A program made the position numbers and the translations under genes. Below, one piece after another: positions 6,820-21,178 of a stretch of DNA of 64,000 nt (the first letter of the stretch is position 1; every line of letters starts with the position of its first letter). This DNA comes from Ulva prolifera (Eukaryota > Chlorophyta > Ulvophyceae > Ulvales > Ulvaceae), in NCBI GenBank assembly GCA_023078555.1, contig CM041198.1, positions 8,913,836 to 8,977,835 of the forward strand. Reading direction: 5' to 3'. The notes under the pieces were generated by a model. It searched no databases. It saw only the letters and a program-made list of their open reading frames with translations, and was not told where the DNA came from.

Positions 6820-9800
6820 TCAGCCGCTCTTGGCTGCAGCTCCCTTCTTCTCTCCCTCAGGCTTCTGCACATCTACCACACCATCGTCTACCGCCCATAC
6901 CTCTGGACACAACGCTGACGTGAACTCAGAGTTGTGACTAATCAGTAGGACACCCCCTTGGAAGTCACGGATTGCCCCAGCTAGTGCCCCCAGCGAATCC
7001 CTATCTAAGTAGTTGGTGGGTTCATCCATGATGAGGAAATGTGGATGGTTCCACATCGCAGCTGCTAGGACCAGTTTGACCTTTTGCCCACCCGACAGCC
7101 CCTTAATGTGCGAATGGCTGGCCAGCTCTGAGTCTAGTCCAAAGTCAGACAGGTACTCTTCGACATTGGCCCGGGATAGGACCTTCTTGTCGCCAGCTGC
7201 AGACGCAAGCTTCCCGTCAAACTCAGCGATCATCTTTTTAAATCCCCTCGAAACAAGCTCCTGCATACAGTGGCACGTGTCAATCAAAAAGCCAGACTGG
7301 TGCTTCACTGCTGCATCATTCATTGGTTGCTCACTGCTCACTACATGAAAACGTAGAGCGATTGACCTGAGTGTGGCACGAGTGCTGAACAGACGCTATT
7401 CAGAGTTCTTGGTATGTGGAATTAGAAAGTTGTGCATCAACAACTACGGAGACACTGATACACGACCACAAGCCAGGCAAGGGTCTGGGGGCAGACCTCG
7501 CGAGTGAACCACTTGTTGTACTTGATAGAAGGCAAGCCTTTCCACGAGATTTCGTACTGAAAGTCGCCCTTCTTTTTGCGACGTGACTTGATTTCATCTA
7601 CAGTCCGCATCATCCCATCAATTTCAAACGTCTGTACCTTCTTCTTCTCTTCATCCGTCATTTTCCTGAACACCTGCAAGGGCAAAACTAGTTAATGTAC
7701 GTGCATGCCATGAAAGAAAACAGCGCTGTGGAGCAACTGCGGCCAGCGGCCCCCTGAATTCGTGCCAGCACACCCGCCACAGAAAAGCAGCAGCAGTGAG
7801 TCACCGCCAACCAAGTGCACTGAGCAGTGCAGGCTGTTTGCATGTAACACACACAACACTTCAGTCCAGCGGTGATAAGGACTCTCCATCCCATCAGATG
7901 TGCAAGCCTTAGACGCAGGCTTGTCACAGTGGTCAAGGAGAGCACAGGCAGGGCGTCGCTCACCTTTTCCGCCTCCTCCTCATCCTCCCCATGCTCGTAC
8001 CGCCGGATGATGTACTGCACCGGCGTGGCCATGAGGTGCGACTCCAGGTGGTGGAACGCGTGCTGTGCGATGTACGCAATCCGCAGGTTCGGATGGCGCT
8101 CGATCTCCCCGGCGGTGGGCTTGATCTCCCCTACACACATGCGCACACTGCACACCATGCTTCCAGCCGTAAACAAGAGAAGCAACGGACGTACCGCAAT
8201 CAGAACGAGACCAGGCTGCAGAGCCACACGCAACTCCTCTGCCGAATCTACTGCCAGCAGATGCGCCTGGCCGCTGGCAGGTTTCGCAGCCTCGCAGGGC
8301 AAGAAGGAGAGCTGCAAGCACGGGTGGCGGCCAGGGGGGGGTGCGCACCGGTGATGACCTTGATGAGGGTCGACTTGCCGGCGCCGTTGGGCCCGAGGAC
8401 GCCGACGCGGGCGGCCATGTTGGCCTTCAGCGTCACGTTCGTCAGCTGCGGCTTTGGTGCGCCCTCGTACTGGAACGTCATCTTCTTGCACTTTATTACG
8501 GGCTTCTCGCGCGACCTGCGTTCTCGCGGCCGTAAAAATATGACGCAGCAGGCCTCAGCGCTGCAGGCCGGGCTGCATCGAGACAGACCATGCATGGAGG
8601 AGGAGGGGGGGGCGCACTTCACGCCGTCGAGGGGCCCCGGGATGGGGAACTTGAACTTCACGTACTCGTCAGTGAGCTCGTAGTAGGCCTTCGCCTCGGG
8701 CTTCTGCTCCACGAACGCCGAGAGGTTGCCGCGGTACTTCGCGAGCTTCTTGTTCTCGTAGTGGATGATGCCGGTGCACACCGTGTCGAGGAAGCCGCTG
8801 TCGTGGCTGACGGTGATGAGCGTCGTGCCGCAGGAGAGCAGGTACTGCTGCAGCCAGTGCACGTTCGCCGTGTCCATGTGGTTCGTCGGCTCGTCGAGCA
8901 GCAGGAGGCCAGCCTCGAGCAGCATCGCGCGTGCCAGCGCCAGCTTCATCTTCCAGCCACCTGCACGCCGCGCGGCGCGCGTTTGAGCAAGTGTCGCCAC
9001 TGGCTCATACCGAACACACATCGGACGAACATCTCTCGGTCAAGCATACACACGGCCATCTCAGCGACGAAAATCAGGCGATGAGCGCACATGTGTTGGC
9101 GACATGACCGTGCGACTGTGCACATGTGAGCACCGGCGAGCGTTCGGCGAGTAGGCGGTACATTCACGCACCAAGTGCACCACCAGGGCAGAGCGGAGCA
9201 GGAAATGGGGCGCGAGGGGAGGTCGCACCGGACAGGGTCGAGATGTTGAGGGACAGGCGGCTGTCATCAAAGCCGATGTCCTCGAGGGCCTTCTGGCAGG
9301 CCGTGCGGTCGAGGCCCTTGCCCTTGATCTGCGCGTCGTCGGCGAGGTAGTCCAGCACGAGGGGGTCGTCCGCCTGGCCCTGGATGTCGTGCGCGACATA
9401 CACCGTGAGCACCTCGCCGGGCGGCGGGAAGCCGTCCACCTGCACCGCGAGCTCCCACGTCAGGGGCTACGCAGCCGCATCTGCTGAAGGTGCCAGCGGC
9501 TGCCGACTACCCGTCTCGACATGAACAAGAACGCCGCCACACCCAGGCTGCCGTCTGCATGTCATGGTGTCCTGAGCCGGGGCGGCTGCGTGCCTCGAGG
9601 GGCACCGCACCTGGCCGTTGGCGATGGCGCGCATGAGGGTGGTCTTGCCACAGCCATTCGGCCCGCAGAGGCCGTAGCGGCCGCCGCGCTTGAGGCGCAG
9701 GCGCGCGCCGGACAGCAGGATGCGGCCGCCGTACGCGAGCGAGAAGTCGCAGTCGCAGAGATCCTCGCCCTCCTCCGCGTCGCTGTCCTCGCCCTCGAGC

Positions 9801-12208
9801 ACCCGCACGTCGTGCTGGCACCGCCGCATCACCGCCCTGCACCCCGACGCCACCCGTCACCGCATGCGCCCGGCACCGGCTGAGCATGCATGTGCCAGGT
9901 GCAGTCAATTGAGGGCCCGAGCTAGACACACTGCGGGCCGGCGACTGCATCGCCGCTGGAGTTGCAGCTGACAAGCACTGTCGCGGGGAACTCCGCACTG
10001 AGTTGGGGGCAGGTCACTGATGGCCTGGCAAGCATGCTGTGCAACGTCGTTCACCGTCGAGTGGTGGGCCAGAGGCCAGGGGTCGTCAGTGGGGGGGAGT
10101 GAGGGGGGGGGGCGCACTCGCAGGCCTTCTTGGCGCTGTCGCCGACAAAGGGGCCGAGGAAGGGGGTGAAGCAGGTTCCCCACTCGCGGGTGTCGAAGCA
10201 GTGGCGGTCCATGAGAGTGGTGCACATGGTGGCGACGTACTCCACGGCCTCGTGGAAGAGCGTGCTGCTCTTGCCCGCCTCCCGCATCTCCACGAGCTCC
10301 TCCTTCATGTGCTCCGCCACCATCTGCACACCCACGCCTCCCGTCACACTCAGCAGTCCACACACATTGCCACCCTCACCTCAGTGCCCCGTACTGGTGC
10401 TGAAGCTTACCCTAGGCCTGCGGGCGGCGAATCATTGCACTCGTGGCTACATCATCATGGCATGCCACCAGCGAGGGTGGTACGGATCAAGCGTGCTCAG
10501 CTACTGAACACCGCACCAGCAAATGATCGGAACGCTTCGAGTCGATTCAACGTCCTACCGAGGGGGGCGCATGCAGGCACACACGCACGCATGGACGCAT
10601 GCAGGCACACACGCACGCATGGACGCACGCATGGACGCATGCAGGCACACACGCACGCATGGACGCATGCAGGCACACATGCACGCATGGACGCACGCAT
10701 GGACGCATGCAGGCACACACGCACGCATGGACGCATGCAGGCACACACGCTTCGAGCCAATATGAGTTCCCACAGAGGGCGTGGGGGCAGACCTCCGGCG
10801 CGGCGCGCTTCGCGAGCTCCGCCTCGAGGGCCTCCCGGCCATCCTCCGAGCCCGCGGCCTTGACGAGCAGCGCGTGCGTGTTGACCGCGACAGCGCGCGC
10901 GTTCGGGTCCGAGATCTCCTTGCCGACCTTGTCCACCTCCGGCAGCAGCACGGGCATGAAGGACGCGAGCGCCGCGGGGCGCTCCACGAGGCGCACCATG
11001 TTGGTGATGATCACCGCCGTCTGCCGGCGGATCGCGTTGTTGCGCTCGCGCAGGCCCCGCACGAGCAGCGGCACCATCACAGACAGCATCTTGCTCTCCA
11101 CCGGCTGCGCGAACGTCGTCGCTGCGAGCTTCACGATCGTGTCCGGGACGTTCGCGGGCTTGAGGATGCACGAGATGACGTCCTGCTGCAGCGGCTCAAA
11201 GTCGCGGTTGTTGACGAGCGTCAGCGCGATCTGCATCGCCGCGAGCGCGGCCTCCTTGACCTCGTCGCGCGCGTCCGTCATGAGGTCGCGCAGCGGCGGG
11301 AAGAACGTCGGCAGGCCGTCGGCGCACGACTCGGGCGCGCGCGCGAGCAGGTCCCGCAGCTGGACGCACGCCGCGTACTTCTGCTGCCAGCGCAGGCCGG
11401 GCGCCATCGCGGCCGTGATGTGCGGCAGCACGAAGCGCGCACCGTACGGGCACATGACGTTGATGAGCGCGCGGCCGGCGTTCACGGCGGCCGTGTGCAC
11501 GTCGCCGACCTTGTCGGCGGCCGCGTGCAGGATCTGCGGCACGTACGGCACGAGGTAGGGCTCCGTGGAGGAGCGGCAGATGTCGCAGAGGGCAGAGACG
11601 AGGAGGAGCGCGCCGCTGCGGGTCACGGGCGTCTTGGACGTGAAGCCGGTCTCGAGGGAGGAGAGGATGTGCGCGGATCGCAGCAGCATGATGTCTGCAC
11701 GGCTGGCGCGGCGTGAGGCTGGTCAGTGGGTCCGTGTGGCCTCTGAGGCCGCGGCATTACAGGGGTGCAGGGGGCTAAGCCGGGTGCAGGAACAGCAGAT
11801 GAGCGTGGATGCCGAGCCAGGCGGAGTGGGTTGCTGTGTGGTGAGGGGTGGTGGTGTGCGCACATGCATGCAGGGAGCTGCAAGAAGTCAGACGAATGTG
11901 CATGATGGAGCCCAGAGCCTGTGAAGCACAGCATGCGCGCGGCATCGGAAATGGCCGATTCCAAACTGAACATGTGCAAGCCAACTGTGACCACAAGTAG
12001 AACTGGTCATTGATGGGGCGAATTCGACCGACACGGGCCTCCCAGGCAGTGCAGCTGTGGCCGACCTCTGACCGTGACCCGGTTGTTTTGGCGGCGCATG
12101 GTGTGCACATCTTGGTGGAAGTGCACACTGTGAGGCGGACGAAACAGGGCTTCAGACGGCCTGGTGCTCTGACTCAACCACAGGGGGGCCAAAGGGGACC
12201 CTCGTGTA

Positions 12209-15470: not shown

Positions 15471-17123
15471 AATGAACAGGTACATGGTTAACATGTGCAG
15501 CATTGTCCGATACGCTTGTGCCAACATCCCGCAGCCAGTTGGCACTTGACACCACAATGTGTCTGGCGGTACCTGCGTAGCCATGCCGGCTCTCAGAGGC
15601 CGTGCCCCGGAACGCACCTCCAGCGCTACTTCCGCCAGGGAAGTGGCCGCACTTCGAGCAGGGTCAGGCACTGCTGGGGGGAACATGCCCCTGCTGTGGT
15701 CGTCGGTCGCAAGCAGGGTGCGCTGCTGCACAATGGCGCAGCATGAGCTGCCCTCCTCCCGAGCTCCGTCCTCTCGACACACCGCGGAGCGGGTGCACCG
15801 GCGCAGAGCTGCTGCTGTCGTTCGCGTGCTGCAACTAGCACTGTCATTGTGTATGCATGGCTGCACACGCTTGGCCATGTCCACTTGGGTGTTGACGACT
15901 CGAGACCAAATTGGGGGGTTACCAGGTTGGCTGGTTGCCTGACTGATTGCTGTGACTGTGCACAAGTCCGACACTTGATCCGCAATTTGGCCTGCCACAC
16001 GAAGTGTGTGGAGCAGTGCAACTAAACAGAGTGTTGCCACTGTTTGATCACACTGATGTGGCGCTAATGAGATGGCATCATCTGCCGGTGATTTCCCTCT
16101 TATGCAACAGGCCTGCAAACAGAACCCCCCCAGGCATCATGCCAAACCCACAACAATAGTGGCCTCAGCACCCCGGCCGGAAGAGGACACTGCAGAGATG
16201 TGGTTGGGAATTATGGATTCTCTAGTTAATGTCCGTGTTGTGTCACATGTTCCTGCTGAAAGGATGGAGTCCTTGCAGTGCATTTGCAGTTCTTCTGCTG
16301 AGCGGCATGGCTGACGTAAGCTTGGCCTGGTCACCGTTGTCAGAGTGTGGAAGTCATGGCTGTCAGCGATTTCACCGCAGGGTCAAGCTCGGGCCTCGTC
16401 AGGCGGCGTGCTGCGGCGCCAGAGTGTGGCTGTCGGCACAGCAGCACCTTGCTGCCATGAACGCATCGTCCGCAACATGCGACAACGCCCCGTCGGGGCA
16501 GACTTGGGAGCAAGATAAACCGTTGATTTGTGAGTTACGCCATTCTTTCAAGTGGGCACTGTCGCGGCGGAGGTCCTTAAATGGGGGTGACAATGCTGCT
16601 CAATTCACGCCCGTCACTCACGCAGTCAACCAATTCAAGTCACAGGCGTTGCTCTCGGAGTGGACAGATACACGTACGCAAAAACAAGGGTAAAGGAGAG
16701 CGACCATTCCGTCTTGTCGCCATGGCTCAGGCATGTGACGACGGTAGAACGATTGGACAGGTGCGACCTCGTATACCCACAGTCACTTGTCACCAGGCCA
16801 ACCTGGGTGCGCTAAGCCGACAAAATGCATCGGGAATTCCACTTGGAATGCAGCCCGGTGTTTATTCGGCTACAACAGCTGTGTCACGCATTGCGATCTG
16901 AAGTATCCGTGATCGACGTGTCGAAAGCGTCGCGACTCCGCACAAAGCCCGAGCCTGGGATTTTGTTCAAATCTGCAGGAACACGCAGAGCCACCACCCC
17001 AAATGACTGAAAGTTGAGATTCCAAGCCGCTGGGTAGAAGCATTTGCGCGCATTCGTGGTCGTGGAGCTGTGATGTGTTCGCTCGCTCATGGGCGACAAT
17101 GAGGAGGCGTGCCATGCGACCAG
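15471..17123. other. Gene-poor stretch upstream of the sucrose phosphorylase gene
   Basis: No certain gene. Possible upstream exons of the next gene: an 80-codon open frame at 16072-16314, and a short segment from ATG 16722 reading MAQACDDGRTIGQ before a CAG|gtgcga donor. Neither could be joined to 17124 with confidence. The rest shows nothing recognisable. Confidence 0.35.
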
Positions 17124-20100
17124 ATGTGCCATGTGCAGGGCGAAAAGGACACTTCGGAGCTGGATCTTGACTTGGGTGTGGAGAGATCTGTGCGAATTGA
17201 CCGGGATCCAACTCCAGCAGAGCGTCTTGCCCACCTGATGCCTGGTAAATGCACGGTCACCGAGCGTGTGAACTGGGGTGTAGACACTAGCCTGTCCAAC
17301 CAGGTCCAGCTATCTGTGTACCCCGACTGCATCGGGCCAGAAGGCAAGCGGGACATCACTGCTGTTGCGGAATTCGTCAGCAAATGCATCGGGGAAGTGG
17401 CTGGTGGTGTGCACGTTCTGCCGTTCTACCCCAGCTCAGCGGATCGCGGCTTCGCCCCACTGACCCACAAAGAAGTGAATGAGGATCTTGGCTCTTGGGA
17501 CGATCTCCAGAGTATCGCCTCCAAGCGGGACTTGTGTGTGGACTACATGGTCAACCACATCTCTGCACAGAGCAAGGAATTCAAGGACTTCGTCAGCAAG
17601 GGCGATAAAGTGTGCTCCCAACACCGGCAATAGCAAGCATCCTCACCGCTGCTTGGACACAAATGTGCTTGGCATGGCCAAATCAGCTCCAGCCTGCTCT
17701 TATCCTCTCACATCAGGCCTCAACCCATGCCTTGCAAGCACAGGCTGCCTTTCCTTCAGGAACAGTGGTGCTTCATCCACATGTCGCCAATACACGATGC
17801 CTCACCCACTCTACCTGTGGAAGCTCCACAGAGGTAGAGTCGACGGACGAGCGCCTCGTCTCGTGTGCCAGGTCTGGTATCACATCTGCGACGACCCATT
17901 GAACATCACACCTGTAGCAATTTCCCCTCTGTACACTGGTCAAGCTTCATAGTGGCAGCTCAGTGTTCCACATTACACGGCAGACGGGCCAATGGCTTGC
18001 AGCATGCGCAGCATCGCGGGGTGACCATACAGCCTGTCAGCTCTTATAGCGCGTAAACGAGCTGTCAATTTGCAATGCCACCTCAGCCACCTCGGCCACG
18101 GCCAGACCCACTGCAAGCGTGCTTGCAGTCGGAGTATGCGCCGCTCTTCATACGGTACAATGACATCTTTGAAGATGGTGATGAGGAGGCTGTGAAGAAA
18201 GTGTACACCCGTGCCCCCACCCCTCCCTTCCTTGAGATAACACATGACGATGGCACGAGCCAGAAAGTATGGAGCTCGTTCTCAGAGGAGCAGATCGACA
18301 TCAACACGTTCAGCAACGAAGGCCGGGACTTCATCTCAGACCAGGTCACATCGCTATGCGCCACGTGCGCCCCTCCTCCCAACGCCTAGCAGAATGCTGC
18401 GACACCTGCACGTAGCAGACACCTCCTGGTTGCGTCTCAATCGCTGATCAGACCGGTGCGGCAGTGACACGGCCCATGCACCGTGTCACGACCGAGTTCA
18501 TGACCCTGCTGCGCCGCGCGCTCATCGGCGTGTTGTGGCAACATGCAGGGCAAACCTGGTGCGGCTCGACGCGTTTGGCTACACCACGAAGCGCAAGGGC
18601 ACCAACTGCTTCTTCGTGCAGCCCGACGTCTGGGAGCTGCTGCACTACGTCCAGGACCAGCTCCAGTGCAAGGGCACGGAGCTGCTGTGCGAGGTGCACG
18701 ACCACTACGTCATGCAGAAGGCGCTCGCGGAGCACAGCATCTGGGCCTACGACTTCTGCCTGCCCTTCCTCGTCCTGCAGGTGCTCCCCTCCTCTGCTAC
18801 GGCCTCTCCTGCAGCCCCCACACCTGTGGCCACTCCTTCATTAGGATTTTCAATCTCACGCGGATCGCTCGAGTCCGCGATGATCTGTGCCCTAAAAAGT
18901 ACAGTAATGTATTTCTGAAGTTGCTTAACCATTCTCTTGCCAGGCATTGGCAATCCCAGACATCCGTGGCCCGCTGCGATCGTTGGGCAGGCTGTTGCGT
19001 TGACGCGGCGCTGCCGTGGCCGTGTGTGATGACGCCCCGTGGCTGAGGTGGTGGCCGTGTGTGCAGACGCTGTATGACGCGGACGCAGACAACCTCAAGG
19101 CGTGGTGGCTGAAGTGCCCCCGCAAGCAGGTGACGACGCTCGACACGCATGACGGCATCCCCGTCGTCGACCTCAGCGATGTGCTGACGACCGACCAGGT
19201 CACCCGCACTCAGGAGCGCATCCTCGCCAACGGCGCCAACGTCAACGACCGCTACAACCCCAAGGCTCAAGACAACGAAGTGTACCAGGCATGCTGCTGT
19301 CTGCCTTCCTCCGCATGCACTTGTCGCCGCGGCCTGTCTCCAACAGTGGGCTAGTTCTGGCTGATAAACACATGCCGGCAGTCATGCACCGCTCGCACAC
19401 TCTGCACTGGGGCGCGAGCCGTACCCTCGTTGATGCCTCCTAAGCTCGTTGACTTGCCGTGCACAGGGCAACCCCATGCCCAGCGCTGCACGCCCGGGCC
19501 GATTCTCCCCCAGCACACATGCATGCAGCGCATTCACGGCGCAGATGTCGTCCGCGAGTCGCGCTCCGACAGCCCCCCCCCCCCCCCCCCCCCCCCTGGC
19601 ATGGAGCACGAGGCCCCAATGACACACGGCTGTGCAGCTGAACATCACGTACTTCTCGGCGGTGGAGGAGGACGAGACGTGGTACCTGCTGGCGCGCGCG
19701 CTGCAGTTCTTCACGCCGGGGGTGCCGCTCGTCTACTACGTCGGCCTCCTCGCCGGCGCGAACGACGCGGCCCTCGTGGAGGAGACCGGCACCGGCCGCG
19801 ACATCAACCGCCACCCCTACACCGTGCCGGAGGCGGAGAAGGAGATGAAGCGGCCGGTGGTGAAGGTGCGGCCGGCGCGGCCTCCTGCCGTGTGTGCACT
19901 GGTGGCCGCTCGCTTCGATTCGAGGGTCCGCGATGCAGGCCCGGGTCCCTGGGGTTGTCGATTCAACTTGCTCGGAGCCAATCGATCGTATACACCTCGA
20001 CGCTACGATACAACTGTTGAATAATGGTGTCGAGGCACGGGGCCCTCCTGATCTGCATATCTGTCAGGAGCGTGAGGAATCGGCGCCTCATGCCAGGCAG

Positions 20101-21178
20101 GCGTGTATGCACCGGGTGTTCTAGTCCGGCGCTGCTTGGTGTCTGCCTGTCACATTGATCGGTGGCCGCAATCCACACCAGCCCCCCGCTGCCCCGTGCT
20201 GCGGCACACATGAAGTACACAGCCCTGGAGAATCAATCCCTGAGGAAGGGGCGATCACTGGGTGCCGACGCGCTAGGCCGGTGCAGGCGCTGATGGACAT
20301 GTGCAAGCTGCGCAACACGCACCCGGCCTTCAACGGCTCCTTTGAGGTCCTCGACGCCGTCGTCGACATCCAGCAGTACAGCGAGCAGCTGCACGCCCTG
20401 GAGCCCGGTAGCAGCAGCGCCTTCCTCACCGAGCGGCTCGGCATGCCCGCGGACGTCGCGGTCTCGCTGGACGGCAGAGGCTGGTGCGTGCCCCCCCCCC
20501 CCCCCCCTGGCACCAGCTGGCCCCACGAGCCTACATGTGCAGGACTACTGCGGTGTGACGGGGCGTGTCGGTACGTCTGTGGTGCGCAAGCGTGCGGACT
20601 TTCGGGGGTTGTCCCGTGACAGGCAGGCACTACGATCTGTGCTCAACCAAACACATATACTGTGTGATCTCGCCGAAGCACCACACAGCAAGCAGGCGGC
20701 CTTGCATGGCAGCCGGTGAGGCCGCCTATGCTGACCGGTCTGTGTCTGATGCTGCAGGTTCATCGATAAGCTGCTCAAGGGTGCCACCGACGAGCCCAAG
20801 CTGTCCACCAACGGCGCCCTCCAGTCCGCCGATATGCCGAGCGGCGACATCTCGGAGGGCGAGCGCCTCTACCACCCGTGCTCTGCGGCGCTGGAGAACG
20901 TCAAGAATGGCCTCATGTCCCCTGTGGACACGGCGCACGGCCGGCAGTTCTCGGTGCCGGAGCGCTCCGCGCTGCGGCGCCGCGCCCTGCAGCGCGACGT
21001 CTCCCTGCACGTGCCCCGCAACGTCGCCATCTGCCGCTGGAGCGCCGCGGACGCCTGGGCCGTGCTCGAGGTGGACCTGTGCCGGAAGGCCGGGCGGATC
21101 GTGTTCTCGGAGGAGGGTGGCGTAGGGGTGTTTGACATCGGGTCGGTCCTGAGCAAGTACCACGAGGCAGAGGAGTGA
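17124..21178 (+). CDS. Sucrose phosphorylase-like glycoside hydrolase family 13 (GH13_18) enzyme
   Basis: Family members reversibly phosphorolyse sucrose (or a related glucoside) to glucose-1-phosphate. Seven exons: 17124-17609, 18129-18364, 18549-18780, 19067-19288, 19638-19865, 20287-20483, 20758-21178; about 673 residues against about 490-560 in bacteria. GH13 motifs are in order: region I DYMVNHIS, region II RLDAFGY (nucleophile Asp), region III CEVHDHY (acid/base Glu), region IV LDTHDG (stabiliser Asp). The family hallmark YYVGLLAGAND...GTGRDINRHPYT is complete. After RNTHPAF the C-terminal domain holds an extra ~130 residues, then a typical ending strand (AVLEVDLCRKAGRIVF). The intron after 19288 uses a GC donor (CAG|gcatgc). 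The start is uncertain: ATG 17124 opens the frame, but a tgcag acceptor lies just after it, so an upstream exon is possible. I saw no clear transit peptide. Substrate is not decidable from sequence. Confidence 0.9.
19573..19596. repeat. Poly-C tract (24) in a sucrose phosphorylase intron
   Basis: An uninterrupted run of C lies about 40 bases before the gtgcag acceptor of the exon starting at 19638. Another 17-base C run (20491-20507) begins 8 bases after the gtgcgt donor at 20484. Confidence 0.95.

Follow-up and report, generated by a model that had tools for sequence, protein, structure and literature searches.

Introduction

The closest described relatives of the gene analyzed here are the phosphorylases of glycoside hydrolase family 13, subfamily 18 (GH13_18). 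According to PMC7178133, loop A of these enzymes is a specificity fingerprint, which reads N(L/V)D(I/L/V)YQ in sucrose phosphorylases, GFDVHQ or KXXYYQ in sucrose-phosphate phosphorylases and VGAIYQ in glucosylglycerol phosphorylases, and glucosylglycerate phosphorylases combine a loop A Glu with (T/S)ETN at strand 5. In the same source, Arg135 of the Bifidobacterium adolescentis sucrose phosphorylase (BaSP) is tied to phosphate affinity. An earlier note on this DNA described the subfamily as known mainly from bacteria. This description stands, but sucrose phosphorylase is already annotated in two green algae, Klebsormidium dissectum (PMC6691101) and Dunaliella tertiolecta (PMC3061936; three transcripts), and for Cymbomonas a pathway bearing its name has been predicted (PMC5741210). 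In the literature covered, which extends to few subscription journals and was seen partly in excerpt, nothing was found on how the gene for an algal GH13_18 enzyme is built, on its duplication or on changes in its loops. Here, we analyzed a 64,000-nucleotide stretch of the green alga Ulva prolifera (the window; contig CM041198.1, C3:8913836-8977835), which carries a seven-exon GH13_18 gene (SP1), together with a paralogue outside the window on the same contig (SP2).

Judged from their sequences, SP1 and SP2 are probably a working nuclear gene pair derived from one intron-bearing ancestor of probable bacterial origin, in which SP2 would be a canonical sucrose phosphorylase and SP1 would combine the same catalytic core with an altered use of acceptor or phosphate. 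Sucrose phosphorylase in green algae is itself already in print; what is new is the duplicated pair and the lopsided divergence of its acceptor sites.

A pair of GH13_18 genes on one contig

The NCBIfam sucrose phosphorylase model TIGR03852 was scanned against the SP1 protein only, which matched it with 516.6 bits (E 5.2e-155), above the cut-off of 334.4. Among the 28 PDB matches listed for SP1, 14 were GH13_18 phosphorylases (E 2.2e-129 to 5.8e-57), including all of the best solved relatives (7qqj, 7qqi, 7xdr/7xdq, 9j1u, 6s9v, 7znp and 1r7a); the others, amylosucrases among them, had E values of 1.3e-12 or weaker. Another GH13 subfamily is ruled out for SP1 by these PDB scores and the TIGR03852 match, a comparison made by score alone, the trees below holding GH13_18-like rows only. 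The catalytic Asp/Glu/Asp and glucose-site (-1) residues (D50, H88, R190, D192, E232, H289, D290 and R399 in BaSP numbering) are present in SP1 and in SP2 (8/8 in each). The GH13_18 phosphorylase identity proposed in the earlier note is thus borne out by the model, the structures, the residues and the trees, and the sequence data support SP1 as a member of this family of retaining alpha-glucoside phosphorylases, in its sucrose-phosphorylase branch.

A search of the own genome with the SP1 protein gave 15 matches, namely the seven SP1 exons (88-100% identity) and eight matches in a single paralogue, with no third copy among them. This paralogue, SP2, is located at C3:8879415-8885000, 46 kb away and on the opposite strand. 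All six SP1 introns are present in SP2 at the same alignment column and in the same phase (6/6), and SP2 has one extra; the shared introns are therefore older than the duplication. The catalytic domains of the two copies are 61.8% identical, with 0.33 nonsynonymous (dN) and 0.73 synonymous (dS) substitutions per site (Nei-Gojobori, 430 codons), the dS value probably being depressed by biased GC content at third codon positions (GC3). Identity to the best bacterial relative is 60.7% for SP2 and 51.4% for SP1, and the end branches in the trees measure 0.21-0.22 and 0.95-0.99, respectively; the long end branch marks SP1 as the fast-evolving copy.

Divergence of the acceptor site

Loops A and B were compared with those of 80 bacterial relatives, the best 80 of 584 matching loci as ranked by likeness to SP1. 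Loop A of SP2 (NLDIYQ) fits the sucrose phosphorylase motif. That of SP1 (DN-EVYQ) is one residue shorter, carries D342E and departs from the motif. At five loop positions SP2 agrees with the bacteria and SP1 does not: in loop B, Lys135 (80/80 bacteria) is replaced by Ala (K135A) and Arg137 (78/80) by Thr (R137T), and further on Tyr338 (80/80) is replaced by Gln, Leu341 (79/80) is deleted and Asp342 (80/80) is replaced by Glu. Of the 151 columns in which at least 95% of the 80 bacteria agree, 11 lie in loops A and B; departures unique to SP1 number 19, five of them among these 11 (hypergeometric P 0.005, in a post hoc test that takes the bacteria as independent). SP2 has four unique departures at the same columns, none of them in these loops.

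The fingerprints of other specificities were also searched for. VGAIYQ was found in neither copy, and neither GFDVHQ nor KXXYYQ was found in loop A of SP1 or SP2. The glucosylglycerate fingerprint is likewise absent from SP1, which has CEVHDH in place of (T/S)ETN and Gln345 rather than Glu. With both osmolyte fingerprints missing, the glucosylglycerol or glucosylglycerate enzyme suggested in the earlier note is not borne out.

The two copies also share an insertion in domain C. A profile built from 49 of the 80 bacterial C-terminal tails matched SP1 at residues 477-491 (18.4 bits) and, weakly, at residues 627-654 (6.7 bits), and SP2 at residues 486-501 (14.4 bits) and 741-773 (22.3 bits). These split matches therefore point to an insert at one site, of about 135 residues in SP1 and 240 in SP2, and its final ~60 residues are similar between the copies.

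Phylogenetic position

In tree 1 (95 rows), SP1 and SP2 were sisters (support 100) within an open fork (91) of the clostridial/desulfobacterial sucrose-phosphorylase branch. Tree 2 (65 rows), from which 33 rows (mostly close relatives, one truncated) and L126 (the same gene as L051) had been dropped, recovered the sister pair (100) in the same branch, as sister to one Spirochaeta row (99/91). Both trees set the algal pair apart from BaSP-type sucrose phosphorylases, glucosylglycerol phosphorylases (GGoP), the Thermoanaerobacterium sucrose 6F-phosphate phosphorylase (TtSPP) and glucosylglycerate phosphorylases (GGaP).

The relatives used for the trees came from bacterial genomes, in which close relatives are sporadic. 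In the phylum of L051, 51 of 198 genomes gave some TIGR03852 match and 3 exceeded the cut-off; in that of the Spirochaeta row L029, the figures were 130 and 7 of 296 genomes. No cyanobacterial locus occurred among the best 80 of 584, Synechococcus elongatus, the one cyanobacterium checked, had no TIGR03852 match, and 71 pattern matches in viral contigs included no relatives. Transfer from bacteria to the alga is likely, as the simplest reading of this distribution.

Gene structure

The seven SP1 exons join into 2022 nt encoding 673 amino acids with no internal stop, so the seven-exon sucrose phosphorylase gene described in the earlier note holds (Table 1). An alternative model with the exon 2 donor at 18344 broke the frame and was discarded in favor of the donor at 18364. 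All six intron acceptors end in TGCAG; three of the six donors read GTGCG, the others being GTGTG, GTGCT and one GC-AG site (GCATG, intron 4). The GTGCG/TGCAG signals that had been described as shared with the neighboring genes are thus roughly true, holding for every acceptor but for only 3/6 donors. In a neighboring elongation factor 3 (EF3)-type gene, TGCAG precedes two domain-bearing frames and CAG/GTGCGG follows one, as candidate sites read from the sequence.

A TGCAG acceptor (TGCCATGTGCAG/GGCGAA) partly coincides with the ATG at 17124. A search for ATG exons upstream and in phase yielded six candidates, three of which use a CAG/GTGCGA donor at 16760, and the ATG at 16722 is favored among them because of its GCCATGG context; the true SP1 start is probably this ATG, in an extra upstream exon. 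For the first exon of SP2, ten candidates were obtained. This probable first exon, the SP2 paralogue, the changed acceptor loops of SP1 and the domain C insert were all overlooked by the earlier note.

Table 1. Features of SP1 in the window (positions are those of the 64,000-nucleotide stretch)
Feature	Position	Strand	Remarks
Candidate first coding exon, MAQACDDGRTIGQ	16722..16760	+	Predicted; donor CAG/GTGCGA; 378-nt intron to 17138
Exon 1 of the seven-exon model	17124..17609	+	Coding part possibly from 17139, after TGCAG acceptor; N-terminal extension, barrel start, VNHIS
Exon 2	18129..18364	+	Loop B YTRAPT at 18204-18221
Exon 3	18549..18780	+	Nucleophile D248 (18568-18570), acid/base E289 (18691-18693)
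Exon 4	19067..19288	+	Transition-state Asp D347 (19151-19153), loop A QDNEVYQ (19268-19288); GC-AG intron next
Exon 5	19638..19865	+	TGRDINRH at 19791-19814
Exon 6	20287..20483	+	Barrel end, first strand of domain C, start of insert
Exon 7	20758..21178	+	Remaining insert, remaining domain C, stop TGA
Domain C insert	20356..21034	+	Residues about 492-626, intron 6 inside; not in the bacterial tails used

GC3 of SP1 is 0.66-0.69 in exons 1-2 and 0.89-1.00 in exons 3-7, with the break at intron 2 (18365-18548); in SP2 it is uniform (0.87-0.95). The break may reflect gene conversion or a recent change at the 5' end. Poly-C tracts are present within SP1 introns 4 (19573-19596) and 6 (20491-20507).

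Host genome and sucrose metabolism

The assembly comprises 88.9 Mb in 44 contigs, the contig with SP1 and SP2 measuring 12.4 Mb, and contains 38 chlorophyll a/b-binding matches, as befits a photosynthetic eukaryote. The plant-type sucrose-phosphate synthase (SPS) model TIGR02468 gave eight ordered matches on contig C4 (best E 3.2e-39), which match exon by exon and none of which exceeds the whole-family cut-off. An S6PP phosphatase match on C8 scored 176.6 bits; that on C5 was weaker (58.6 bits) and also resembled general HAD hydrolases. In a control set of 14 named bacterial and archaeal genomes, TIGR02468 matched in 12 (below cut-off), TIGR02470 in all 14 and PF05116 in 11 (10 over cut-off). 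Because these models also match the control genomes, the SPS call rests on the eight ordered matches and the S6PP call on the C8 match. GH32 invertase matches were located on C9 and C1. No sucrose synthase was seen in the genome, as PF00862 gave no match and TIGR02470 matched nothing beyond the SPS gene except a single weak site, but the PF00862 negative is unreliable, since the SPS gene itself gave no PF00862 match; GH100 was likewise not seen, a similarly limited negative. The weak TIGR02470 site (C10:1216276-1216443, 23.4 bits) could belong to an unrelated glycosyltransferase. Two AMPK1_CBM (glycogen-recognition) matches (L111, C5:1174001-1184000) precede the C5 S6PP match by about 0.8-1.4 kb on the same strand and possibly form one gene with it.

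The genes around SP1 are eukaryotic. An elongation factor 3-type gene with HEAT_EF3 and ABC domains lies at about 6823-11694 on the minus strand. Also on the minus strand, Ion_trans and cyclic-nucleotide-binding matches occur in order (29394-29005 and 26335-26183), each below its Pfam cut-off and together probably representing a cyclic-nucleotide-gated channel. No sugar transporter or other sucrose gene was listed near SP1 in a Pfam search of 7-17 kb and 21-31 kb on both strands (E 0.001).

Proposed function and alternative explanations

The mechanism that we assign to SP1 follows from its homology to GH13_18. D248 would attack the glucosyl donor with E289 acting as the acid, a beta-glucosyl enzyme stabilized by D347 and the glucose-site residues would form, and phosphate would then resolve it to alpha-glucose 1-phosphate. 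As SP2 keeps the sucrose-phosphorylase acceptor site, it most likely turns sucrose from the alga's own SPS and phosphatase into glucose 1-phosphate and fructose. SP1 would still take a glucosyl group, most likely from sucrose, and its use of phosphate or acceptor may differ because loop A is shortened and altered and the basic residue 135 is lost. The sequences show the splice pattern, the duplication, the residue states and the family of SP1 and SP2, and from them we infer activity, substrate, cytosolic location and transfer direction. With such an enzyme, a eukaryotic phototroph that has SPS, phosphatase and invertase, and perhaps lacks sucrose synthase, would be able to interconvert sucrose and glucose 1-phosphate reversibly and at a saving of ATP. 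The two copies moreover form a natural experiment, in which family and catalytic core are common and the acceptor site is conserved in one copy and changed in the other.

Several observations weigh against this reading. SP1 keeps Y132, R134, Y196, H234, Y344 and Q345, its loop changes could have arisen by drift in a redundant copy, and the loop enrichment is suggestive only, being post hoc, blind to kinship and based on rows picked by likeness to SP1. The suggested cytosolic location depends on a first exon that is itself predicted and in which no transit peptide is evident. With regard to origin, tree 1 carried a long-branch warning, involving the Spirochaeta row L029 and the algal pair among others. 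In tree 3, for which 14 further rows including SP1 were dropped and six Spirochaetota rows added, so that SP2 was the sole algal row, support for the algal-Spirochaeta sister relation fell to 89/13 and TtSPP entered the same open fork as the algal row; the apartness from the TtSPP line therefore rests on trees 1 and 2 and the loop motif. Finally, the approximately unbiased (AU) test did not reject a clade of 45 bacterial rows that excludes the algal copy (p 0.459).

The strongest competitor, to which we give somewhat less than an even chance, is that SP1 is a plain second sucrose phosphorylase that differs from SP2 by regulation or location only, its loop changes being tolerated drift. The six retained acceptor-site positions, the conservative nature of D342E and a dN below dS all agree with this, whereas five changes confined to SP1 in 11 near-invariant loop columns, against none in SP2, and the loss of one residue from loop A, the specificity marker, do not. 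It seems unlikely that SP1 has lost phosphorolysis and now hydrolyzes sucrose or transfers its glucosyl group as a transglucosidase. In BaSP, phosphate affinity is supported by Arg135 (PMC7178133), and the Lys found at this position in all 80 bacterial relatives and in SP2 is gone from SP1, but R134 is kept and may suffice, and so is Tyr344, which is also tied to phosphate affinity. Phosphorolysis of an osmolyte, glucosylglycerol or glucosylglycerate, is very improbable: SP1 is as close to two glucosylglycerol phosphorylases (45.3-45.5% identity) as to the sucrose phosphorylase structure 7qqj (45.8%), and its loop A is no longer canonical, yet VGAIYQ, (T/S)ETN and a Glu at position 345 (fingerprints from PMC7178133) are all wanting, trees 1 and 2 set it apart from GGoP and GGaP, and SP2 reads as a canonical sucrose phosphorylase. 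There is also a bolder scenario, possible but doubtful, in which a domesticated bacterial gene gained introns and was duplicated, one copy then evolved a new acceptor specificity for a glucosyl-transferring or phosphorolytic reaction not known in GH13_18, and the shared domain C insert is a eukaryote-specific regulatory or docking element.

Concerning origin, vertical eukaryotic inheritance, or arrival with the plastid, in place of a separate transfer appears rather improbable. Given the annotations in one chlorophyte and one streptophyte alga and the predicted prasinophyte pathway, the gene may have a long history among green algae and plants, and the AU test does not reject an algal gene outside the bacterial clade; against this, none of the top 80 of the 584 loci is cyanobacterial and S. 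elongatus, a single cyanobacterium and not a sample of the group, has no TIGR03852 match. The old horizontal transfer of the earlier note thus survives as the simplest reading of the distribution, but no donor emerged, and the AU test does not reject a tree with the algal gene outside the bacterial clade. Contamination or an assembly artefact is practically negligible. The lower GC3 of exons 1-2 is the point in its favor, but the six introns, a second copy with matching introns at a distance of 46 kb, on a contig of 12.4 Mb, and the eukaryotic neighbors bear out the earlier view of a domesticated nuclear gene.

Comparison with known systems

We compared the pair, read as a canonical SP2 and a probably altered SP1, with the characterized enzymes. 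The clostridial and lactic-acid-bacterial sucrose phosphorylases (TIGR03852; 7qqj, 7qqi; Lactobacillus gtfA) share the catalytic residues and loop B Y132/R134 with both algal copies, and SP2 also resembles them in NLDIYQ and in up to 60.7% identity. Unlike them, the algal genes are nuclear and intron-rich, with an N-terminal extension and a long domain C insert, and SP1 has DN-EVYQ and K135A. BaSP (1R7A) has the eight catalytic and -1 residues in common with the pair and, from the literature, the same retaining mechanism, but it differs in its 39.4% identity, separate branch and own loop B P134/R135. The Marinobacter glucosylglycerol phosphorylase (7XDQ/7XDR) resembles SP1 in R134, the FGYTTKR stretch and 45.3% identity, whereas its VGAIYQ is in neither algal copy and it has His132 in place of the algal Tyr. 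The Thermoanaerobacterium sucrose 6F-phosphate phosphorylase (6S9V) shares Arg134, but its GFDVHQ is not in the algal copies, which have Tyr344 where it has His. Within the green algae, the Dunaliella, Klebsormidium and Cymbomonas reports offer the same enzyme name at the level of annotation.

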